This document shows positions 8,677-25,128 of a DNA stretch of 64,000 nt, one piece after another. A program made the translations under genes and the position numbers. The stretch comes from Halomarina rubra (lineage in GTDB: Archaea; Halobacteriota; Halobacteria; Halobacteriales; Haloarculaceae): NCBI RefSeq assembly GCF_023699475.1, contig NZ_JALXFV010000008.1, positions 720,583-784,582 of the forward strand. Direction: 5' to 3'. The notes under the pieces were generated by a model. It saw only the letters and a program-made list of their open reading frames with translations, made no database searches and was not told where the DNA came from. Positions within the stretch are counted from its first letter, which is position 1. Each line of letters starts with the position of its first letter.

Positions 8677-9384
8677 ATGTACCGCGAATCTAGCGTGGAA
8701 GACCGGCGCGACTGGGAACCACCGATCTACCGCCCCGAAGTCGGCAGCCTCCCCGAGATGGAGGAGAAAGACGCCGAGAAGGTGAACCAGACCGGGACGA
8801 CGACTGTCGGCATCACGACTACCGACGGCGTCGTCATCGCGACGGACATGCGCGCCTCGCTGGGCGGCCGGTTCGTCTCGAACAAGAACGTCCAGAAGGT
8901 CGAGCAGATCCACCCGACCGCGGCCCTGACGCTCGTCGGCTCCGTCGGCGGCGCGCAGTCGTTCATCCGCAACCTCCGTGCGGAGGTCGACCTCTACGAG
9001 GCCCGTCGCGGCGAGCAGATGAGTATGCAGGCGCTCTCGACGCTCGCGGGTAACTTCGCCCGCGGCGGCCCGTTCTTCGCCATCAACCCCATCCTCGGCG
9101 GCGTCGACGACGAGGGCCACCACGTCTACTCCATCGACCCGGCCGGCGGCGTCATGGCCGACGACTACACCGTCACCGGGTCCGGTCTCACCGTCGCCTA
9201 CGGGACGCTCGAACGCGAGTACGAGGACGGCCTCTCGAACGAGGAGGCCAAGTCCGTCGCCGCCAGCGCCGTCAAGGCCGCCGTCGAGCGCGACACCGGG
9301 TCGGGCAACGGCGTCTTCCTCGCGGAGGTCACCGAGGAGGGTGTCGACATCAACGGTCACAAGGACTTCTCCGAGGTCCTCTGA
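8677..9384 (+). CDS. psmB: Proteasome beta subunit
   Basis: A 235-residue precursor of the catalytic subunit of the 20S proteasome. A 40-residue propeptide precedes the self-cleavage site NQTG|TTTVG, which would expose Thr41 as the nucleophile. The usual catalytic partners are present: ATDMRASLGG (Asp) and the VSNKNVQKV Lys. The C-terminal region SGSGLTVAYGTLEREY is typical. With the alpha subunit at 41634 it would build the cytoplasmic self-compartmentalised protease. A TATA-like CCTATTT (about 8644-8650) lies 27-33 bases upstream. It is a stand-alone gene, not next to psmA, which is usual for haloarchaea. Confidence 0.97.
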   Translation: MYRESSVEDRRDWEPPIYRPEVGSLPEMEEKDAEKVNQTGTTTVGITTTDGVVIATDMRASLGGRFVSNKNVQKVEQIHPTAALTLVGSVGGAQSFIRNLRAEVDLYEARRGEQMSMQALSTLAGNFARGGPFFAINPILGGVDDEGHHVYSIDPAGGVMADDYTVTGSGLTVAYGTLEREYEDGLSNEEAKSVAASAVKAAVERDTGSGNGVFLAEVTEEGVDINGHKDFSEVL

Positions 9385-22977: not shown

Positions 22978-23757
22978 TCAGCGGACGCGGACGATGCCCG
23001 ACCGGAAGACGAGGTGGTTCGGGACGATGAACTCCTCGCCGTCGTTCTCGACGGTCGTGACGAACACGTCGACCTCCGAGACGATGCCGCGGTGGCCCGC
23101 GACCTCGACCTCGTCGCCGATGCCGTACGGCTGGCTCAACAGGAGGTAGATGCCCGCCGTCGCGGCCGGGACGACGTCACGGAGCGCGAGCGCGCCAAAG
23201 ACGATGACCGCGAGGAGGTAGCTCCCGAGCAGGACGTACAGCGCGCTGGCCGCGAGTCCGAGTTGGGCGAGCGCGATGACGCCAGCGACGTAGTAGACGC
23301 TGTACTTGACGACCTTCGGGACGACGTTGACCTCGGTGAACTTGACGTTCTCCAGACGCTCGCGGACCGCCACCTCGGCCTTGTCGCCGATGACGAGGCC
23401 GGCGATGACGATGAGGATGGCCGCGAACACGGACGGGAGGTAGCCCGCGAACCCGACCAGCGAGAGGTCGGTCTCGAGGATACCCGCGACCTCCAGCGCC
23501 CCCGCGACAGTCGCGATGTAGATGAACAGCGTGACCAGCGTCGCGACGAGACCGACCGTCGACGTACCGACCCGCTGGGCGGTCCGTTCGAAGCGCGTCC
23601 CCTCGACGGCACGCGGCAGGCCGATGGCGACCATGAACCGCCGGGCGTACCGACCGACGAGGAACCCCAGGATGAGCCCGACGACGAGGATGAAGATGGC
23701 CCCGACGGAGTTCGAGACGGCGCGTAACACCCGCTCGGCGACGCCTTCGACCTGCAT
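22978..23757 (-). CDS. MscS-family mechanosensitive channel
   Basis: A 259-residue small-conductance mechanosensitive channel. Four hydrophobic segments are seen (about residues 13-33, 62-84, 93-115 and 137-180). The pore helix and beta domain follow: GALALRDVVPAATAGIYLLL, then SQPYGIGDEVEVAGHRGIV and VPNHLVFRSGIV. It lets solutes escape on hypo-osmotic shock. Its ATG lies one base beyond the stop codon of the diadenylate cyclase gene, so the two are one operon and a link between c-di-AMP and turgor control is likely. Confidence 0.93.
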   Translation of the reverse strand: MQVEGVAERVLRAVSNSVGAIFILVVGLILGFLVGRYARRFMVAIGLPRAVEGTRFERTAQRVGTSTVGLVATLVTLFIYIATVAGALEVAGILETDLSLVGFAGYLPSVFAAILIVIAGLVIGDKAEVAVRERLENVKFTEVNVVPKVVKYSVYYVAGVIALAQLGLAASALYVLLGSYLLAVIVFGALALRDVVPAATAGIYLLLSQPYGIGDEVEVAGHRGIVSEVDVFVTTVENDGEEFIVPNHLVFRSGIVRVR

Positions 23758-23758
23758 C

Positions 23759-24574
23759 TCAGTAGTCCTCCGGGTCGAGTTCGAGGACGATCTCGCCGCC
23801 CGCGAACGCCCGGACGAGACCGTCGCTCTCGGAGAGGACGATGGAGATGGCGTTGGTGTCCCGCGAGATGGCGGCGGCCGCCATGTGCCGGGTACCCAGA
23901 CCCTTGGGGATGTCGACGCCCTCGGCACCGGGTTCGAGGTAGCGGTACGCCGAGACGATCTTCCCCGAGTCGGAGATGACGAACGCGCCGTCGAGCCGCG
24001 AGAACTCCTTGAGCATCACGTTCACGATGGGGTCACCGACGTGGACGTGGGACTTCTCGAAGGGGTTGTACGACAGCGACCGGGACTTGTTCATCACCTT
24101 CCCCGCGTCGCCGACGACGAACAGCGCGCCGACTGGTTTCCCCTTCTGTCCCTTCTTCCCGAGTTCGATGACGACCTCCAGGACCGCGCGGATGACCGAG
24201 GGGTCGGCCCGTGAGTCGGTGAACAGACCGTAGACGCCCGACCGGACGAACTCGCTCGTGTTGACCCGGACCACCGTGTCGACGGTGTCGTCGAACAGTT
24301 TCGTCGCGCACGCGACGATGGCCCCCTCGTCGACGTACTCGCGTTCGATACCACCTTCGAGGCCGAACCGGATGCGGTCGCGGACGTCCTCGAACTCCAG
24401 CGGGAGTTCGACGTACCGGTCCGCGCCCACCGCGTTCTCCGGGGAGACGACCACGACCGGGGGCGCTTCCTCGTTCGTCGCGAACTCGTCGAAGAGGGAA
24501 GCGCTCGGCGAGAAGAGAAACACCGCATCGACGTCGCCGACGATGTCGTCGTACAGACCGCCCAGCGCTGACAT
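23759..24574 (-). CDS. dacZ: Diadenylate cyclase, archaeal DacZ type
   Basis: A 271-residue enzyme making c-di-AMP from two ATP. The C-terminal DAC domain has its two hallmarks: the DGA motif in FSRLDGAFVISDSGK (residues 195-197) and GTRHMAAAAIS (227-230). The N-terminal about 110 residues are the extra domain typical of archaeal DacZ. c-di-AMP is essential and tied to osmotic balance in haloarchaea. ATG 24574 is preferred over an in-frame ATG at 24601, because the T/A-rich TATA region (about 24600-24610) covers the latter. A perfect palindrome (24613-24625) lies directly upstream of that box. The MscS gene follows at once. Confidence 0.94.
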   Translation of the reverse strand: MSALGGLYDDIVGDVDAVFLFSPSASLFDEFATNEEAPPVVVVSPENAVGADRYVELPLEFEDVRDRIRFGLEGGIEREYVDEGAIVACATKLFDDTVDTVVRVNTSEFVRSGVYGLFTDSRADPSVIRAVLEVVIELGKKGQKGKPVGALFVVGDAGKVMNKSRSLSYNPFEKSHVHVGDPIVNVMLKEFSRLDGAFVISDSGKIVSAYRYLEPGAEGVDIPKGLGTRHMAAAAISRDTNAISIVLSESDGLVRAFAGGEIVLELDPEDY

Positions 24575-24612
24575 GATTGCACTCACTTCCCATGACCGCA
24601 AAAGCCTTTTCG

Positions 24613-24625
24613 ACCGTCCGACGGT
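24613..24625. promoter_or_regulatory. Palindrome directly upstream of the dacZ promoter
   Basis: ACCGTC-C-GACGGT, perfect 6+1+6, a few bases upstream of the dacZ TATA region on the minus strand. Position fits an operator controlling c-di-AMP synthesis. Confidence 0.42.
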
Positions 24626-24699
24626 GGTCGGACGCTCGCCGACACGGAGTCCCCGACACCCTCTGGTAGCCGTCCCCGCCGAGCGTGCAGTCGTCGAGC

Positions 24700-24713
24700 C
24701 TTCACGTGTGAAG
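24700..24713. promoter_or_regulatory. Palindrome abutting the TATA box of the winged-helix gene
   Basis: CTTCAC-GT-GTGAAG, perfect 14 bases, ending 7 bases before the TTTTATC box at 24720-24726 and so covering the BRE. Self-regulation by the encoded winged-helix protein is the simplest reading. Confidence 0.45.
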
Positions 24714-24719
24714 AACCCG

Positions 24720-24726
24720 TTTTATC
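24720..24726 (+). promoter_or_regulatory. TATA box of the small winged-helix gene
   Basis: TTTTATC centred 28 bases before the ATG at 24751; leaderless. Confidence 0.6.
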
Positions 24727-24750: not shown

Positions 24751-25128
24751 ATGACTCGTGGTGACACCCTGCACGACGTTCGGCCGACCGACGTGGACGA
24801 ACCGCTCGCCGTCGACGAAGTGCACCGCGTCTTGGCGGACCGGTGTCGTCGGGCCGTCCTCGCGGACCTCGCCGCCCGCTTCCACCCGGTTCCGCTGTAC
24901 GATCTGACCCATCGGGTCGCCGCGACCGTCGCCGACGGCCCACCGACCGACGCGACGTACCGCGAAGTCCGAGCCGCGTTGGAACACGACCACCTCCCCA
25001 CGCTGGAGGCGGCGGGACTCGTCCAGCGGACGCCCGTCCGCGTCGAACTCACGGCGACGGGACTCCACGTCGAACGACTGCAACGGGCGTTCACCGCGTC
25101 GCTCCGCGCCGCGTTGGACGACGCGTGA
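24751..25128 (+). CDS. Small DUF7344-type winged-helix regulator
   Basis: A 125-residue single winged-helix module: LAVDEVHRVLADRCRRAVLADLA, a middle helix PLYDLTHRVA, and LEHDHLPTLEAAGLVQRTP, the same pattern as the tandem protein at 9520 and the one at 33176. Presumed transcription factor. The ATG is set by the TATA box 28 bases upstream. It is divergent from dacZ, with a separate palindrome at each promoter, so it may repress itself and perhaps dacZ. Target genes are unknown. Confidence 0.82.
   Translation: MTRGDTLHDVRPTDVDEPLAVDEVHRVLADRCRRAVLADLAARFHPVPLYDLTHRVAATVADGPPTDATYREVRAALEHDHLPTLEAAGLVQRTPVRVELTATGLHVERLQRAFTASLRAALDDA

Follow-up and report, generated by a model that had tools for sequence, protein, structure and literature searches.

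Paired GTCNGAC boxes at the dacZ promoter of Halomarina rubra as a probable operator of the cell-division regulator CdrS

How do archaea set their levels of c-di-AMP? Almost nothing is known about this, and dacZ, the diadenylate cyclase gene, is both essential and, in excess, toxic in Haloferax volcanii. We analysed a stretch of 64,000 nucleotides from Halomarina rubra (the window) that contains dacZ, and asked whether two palindromes between dacZ and a divergent winged-helix gene are operators and which protein would read them. The genes at the locus are as follows.

22981-23757, minus strand: MscS-type mechanosensitive channel gene (PF00924, PF05552), downstream of dacZ
23762-24574, minus strand: dacZ, diadenylate cyclase (NF041371 equivalog at 483.7 bits against a cut-off of 430; DACZ_N PF19294 and DAC PF02457 both present)
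24751-25125, plus strand: gene of a 125-residue winged-helix protein with its ATG at 24751 (DUF7344, PF24035, at 44.4 bits against a gathering threshold of 27.8)

These matches allow the product of 23762-24574 to be assigned with confidence as the haloarchaeal DacZ. The nearest named dacZ locus is that of H. oriensis, at 92% identity. The MscS-type channel gene is a probable operon partner of dacZ; a dacZ+mscS2 operon has been predicted in Hfx. volcanii (PMC6741144).

Both palindromes reported in a preliminary description of the locus are present in the sequence, ACCGTC-C-GACGGT near the dacZ promoter at 24613-24625 and CTTCAC-GT-GTGAAG by the promoter of the winged-helix gene at 24700-24713. 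The second had been described as covering the BRE of that gene; it stops at the BRE edge, the TATA box TTTTATC being at 24719-24725 and the BRE at about 24713-24718 by eye. The two were rightly said to differ, their sequences being unrelated, and different binders would be needed for them. When the divergent region (176 bp) was shuffled with its dinucleotides preserved, at least one inverted repeat with 6-bp arms and a loop of at most 4 occurred in 20% of the shuffles and at least two in 5%, and the window averages 0.75 such repeats per 176 bp. Taken alone, neither palindrome stands out from chance. The dacZ palindrome is highly significant because it is conserved, not through its own symmetry.

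The dacZ palindrome holds one member of a pair of GTCNGAC boxes, which start 11 bp apart and adjoin the BRE and TATA box of dacZ. The second of these boxes was missing from the preliminary description.

24600-24612, minus strand: BRE and TATA box of dacZ, CGAAAAGGCTTTT, located from the sequence and by comparison with 80 dacZ promoters
24616-24622: predicted CdrS box 1, GTCCGAC, the core of the 24613-24625 palindrome, proximal and directly upstream of the dacZ BRE
24627-24633: predicted CdrS box 2, GTCGGAC, 11 bp from box 1

Taken together, the boxes make up an inverted repeat whose arms are 8 bp long, CGTCCGAC-GGTG-GTCGGACG (24615-24634), and the region reads GCGTCCGACCACCGTCGGACGGT-CGAAAAGGCTTTTGCGG on the dacZ strand. 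The dacZ transcript is probably leaderless, and we infer a start near 24574. The boxes (24616-24633) are at -42 to -59 from the ATG, with the centre of box 1 (24619) at -45. With the transcript starting as inferred, they lie upstream of the core promoter and within the range of about -41 to -110 from the transcription start that is expected of a CdrS operator. Single-box matches to ACCGTCNGACGGT with two mismatches number 10 in the window, with 17.7 expected, and hence show no excess; this count is uninformative since both half-sites, GTC and GAC, are frequent codons.

Conservation was assessed in dacZ upstream regions of 80 named and five further genomes; 75 regions were left once near-duplicates had been dropped. 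An unbiased scan of all 3-bp gapped palindromes (64 half-sites, gaps of 0-12) between -80 and -33 from the ATG placed GTC-1-GAC first, with 35 of the 75 promoters against 3.5 in shuffles. The second and fourth ranks were taken by GTC-12-GAC (23 against 2.5) and GAC-4-GTC (20 against 3.4), signals that necessarily arise from two boxes at an 11-bp spacing. The same scan gave no GTC-1-GAC-type enrichment at -200 to -153 of the dacZ upstream regions. When the promoters were aligned on the BRE, box starts matching at least five of six letters peaked at -11, -22 and -33, in 24, 20 and 10 promoters, respectively. A held-out set of 27 dacZ promoters from other haloarchaeal families, collected after the first scan, contained the exact box in 15 cases, with 1.0 expected, and a relaxed tandem in 10, with 0.01 expected. 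Over the 102 promoters a box spacing of 11 bp was found 50 times against 0.7 expected and one of 22 bp 16 times against 0.5, counts that come from related genomes and whose excess is no formal probability. The recurrence in the held-out families and the phasing would be hard to account for without a real conserved site. An exact box was absent from about half of the dacZ promoters (40/75 and 12/27), and the groups f2 g17, f5, f6 and f8 clearly had no box there. Judged by these promoter comparisons, the dacZ box is conserved over most haloarchaeal families and much of the class. In the Halobellus dacZ promoters (L011, L015, L019, L022, L028 and L041) the boxes are farther upstream, and a separate conserved element, GAACGTCCCACAACGCTTTA-like, is found at the BRE.

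Which protein would bind such a site? CdrS, a small protein of the ribbon-helix-helix fold, is encoded with ftsZ2, and ChIP-seq in Hfx. volcanii gave 18 CdrS sites with a motif of notable symmetry (PMC8406309). The published site positions relative to the transcription start are -47 for dacZ (HVO_1660), -50 for ftsZ1, -72 for psmB, -92 for panA and -76 for hisB (PMC8406309). We read the corresponding promoters in two Haloferax genomes close to H. volcanii, G040 and G188, which were located with a published primer of that species at one mismatch. GTCNGAC, which was derived from promoter sequences independently of the published CdrS motif logo, is present at all five promoters at about the published distances. 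The dacZ box of these relatives is CGTCAGACG, the ftsZ1 box GTCGGACAGATGTCTGAC (read in G188 only), the psmB box CGTCTGACG at about -73 from the ATG and the panA box GTCAGAC at about -90 from the ATG, and hisB has tandem boxes at -87/-76 in G188 and -89/-78 in G040. At dacZ the box of Halomarina recurs in these two Haloferax genomes; the target gene is the same and the place similar (-47 from the transcription start in Hfx. volcanii, -45 from the ATG here). Whereas Halomarina dacZ has two exact boxes 11 bp apart, dacZ of the Haloferax relatives has one. The 11-bp tandem of Halomarina dacZ is found at Haloferax ftsZ1 and hisB, and is retained at ftsZ1 in 4/4 Halomarina examined. The tandem arrangement may already be implicit in the published CdrS logo. 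The earlier proposal that the dacZ palindrome is a candidate operator is thus borne out by its conservation and by its match to the CdrS ChIP position, and the palindrome is very probably part of a CdrS operator; binding of CdrS at dacZ in Halomarina is deduced from sequence comparison.

The same data bear on the winged-helix neighbour, which had been put forward as the regulator. Its gene and dacZ adjoin across one shared divergent region, the family is winged-helix-like, and the pair is retained in three Halomarina genomes; the DUF7344 protein might accordingly bind both palindromes and control dacZ as well as itself. However, families without a DUF7344 neighbour also conserve the dacZ box, while the gene stands beside dacZ only in Halomarina, namely in the window's genome, G158 (H. 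oriensis) and G374, and is missing there in G237 and H. halobia, the two other Halomarina examined. Between these genomes the DUF7344 proteins share only 42-45% identity, against 80-92% for dacZ; by eye, a small ORF stands between the two genes in G374; and the unrelated sequences of the two palindromes speak against one common binder. A box that is kept without the neighbour and that fits the ChIP position of CdrS, a protein encoded elsewhere, upstream of ftsZ2, leaves this proposal unsupported. Control of dacZ by its neighbour is extremely improbable, and we rejected it: the gene pair is limited to a lineage and the box is not. A literature search found no paper naming DUF7344.

The palindrome of the winged-helix promoter was considered separately.

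24700-24713: CTTCAC-GT-GTGAAG, the second palindrome, on the upstream side of the winged-helix promoter

With its perfect 6-bp arms beside a TATA box, and as the single exact copy of CTTCAC-NN-GTGAAG in the whole genome, it could be the operator of a local regulator of the winged-helix gene. This is unlikely: comparison of the divergent regions, which the preliminary description had called for, gave no counterpart in H. oriensis or G374, the two relatives that keep the gene pair, and a fifth of the shuffles yielded at least one comparable repeat. Conservation of the gene pair together with both palindromes was not found, the pair itself occurring in some Halomarina only. As a conserved operator the element was rejected, and it is probably due to chance (shuffle P about 0.2) or specific to the lineage.

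CdrS itself is encoded upstream of ftsZ2 in the window's genome (PF01402, E=1e-8), and at least its first 23 residues, which include the DNA-reading strand, are identical between Halomarina and Haloferax. The exact tandem pattern GTCNGACNNNNGTCNGAC has seven copies in the 4.07-Mb genome. Three occupy promoters, those of dacZ, ftsZ1 and a DUF7139 membrane protein gene, and in the first two cases the gene is the orthologue of a published CdrS target; the remaining four seem to fall inside coding frames. No exact tandem box was found at the corresponding places of the Halomarina psmB, panA and hisB promoters. Because these three lack it, part of the regulon has changed in Halomarina, where it is either narrower or different. 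The window itself contains psmB, the proteasome beta subunit gene, at 8794-9345; its promoter is devoid of the CdrS box found in Haloferax psmB, a sign of such a change.

Further box pairs were seen at other genes. The DUF7139 membrane protein gene is preceded by tandem 11-bp boxes, about 34 bp from its ATG, in three Halomarina genomes, the window's included (L140 1501-1518; L138, L145), and is predicted to be a new CdrS target. In genomes searched with the tandem pattern, exact box pairs (L141, L142, L135 and L148) precede the gene of a PUA-domain protein and that of a protein whose sequence begins with MGLTCRLLGHSYGD, the latter divergent from a small winged-helix-like gene of 99 residues. 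Both are likewise predicted targets of CdrS.

Could another protein of the same fold occupy the dacZ boxes? Tandem phased boxes would fit any ribbon-helix-helix dimer, and haloarchaea have more than one such protein (CdrL, PMC7439475), any of which, or several sharing GTCNGAC, might bind there. This is very unlikely, as in Haloferax it is CdrS itself that was located at these promoters by ChIP (PMC8406309), and CdrL in Halobacterium bound only upstream of cdrS-ftsZ2 (PMC8406309, PMC7439475). The cdrS promoters of Halomarina and Haloferax (L118, L119 and L120; 80 bp before the cdrS ATG) have an inverted repeat of their own, GTAAGAC-N(about 30)-GTCTTAC, shortly before the start, of which only the right arm is clear in the window's genome and H. 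oriensis. It is a candidate for a CdrL operator or an autoregulatory site.

With CdrS as the preferred binder, each GTCNGAC box would take up one dimer of the 57-residue protein, and the 11-bp interval would set neighbouring dimers next to each other on the same face of the helix. Since the array ends at the BRE, CdrS would most likely aid the loading of TBP and TFB and activate dacZ, with the two dimers contacting the TFB/TBP platform. Synthesis of c-di-AMP would in this way be coupled to the programme that also controls ftsZ1. Repression by CdrS is about half as probable as activation: the proximal box starts just 11 bp upstream of the BRE, which would suit competition with TFB, and Hfx. volcanii does not survive dacZ overexpression (PMC6741144), which would suit a need to keep a toxic product low. 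In the CdrS depletion table dacZ is marked neither as downregulated nor as changed, leaving room for repression (PMC8406309). We nevertheless favour activation because ftsZ1, which has a similar geometry, falls when CdrS is depleted in Hfx. volcanii (PMC8406309). In Halobacterium, CdrS seemingly does not control dacZ according to the authors of that study (PMC8406309), a point that, like the unmarked state of dacZ in the depletion table, weighs against the CdrS reading.

The link between CdrS and dacZ is already known in one species, Hfx. volcanii, and a search of an available paper collection found no later CdrS-dacZ study. What is new is the sequence code obtained from promoter comparison, its 11-bp phasing against the BRE and its conservation over most families of the class. 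What was a ChIP peak in a single species becomes a conserved circuit that ties dacZ to a cell-division regulator, and its defined sequence code allows CdrS regulons to be predicted in further haloarchaea. On balance we think it probable that CdrS already governed c-di-AMP synthesis in the ancestor of the class Halobacteria, acting through tandem boxes that are phased at 11 bp and adjoin the BRE, with dacZ and ftsZ1 as a conserved core and other targets, such as the proteasome and hisB, coming and going.

In its general arrangement the proposed site resembles the tandem operators of the bacterial ribbon-helix-helix repressors MetJ and Arc, small dimers that read short dyad boxes repeated at a fixed interval along one side of the DNA. 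MetJ and Arc, however, are repressors, whereas the dacZ array sits upstream of an archaeal BRE.
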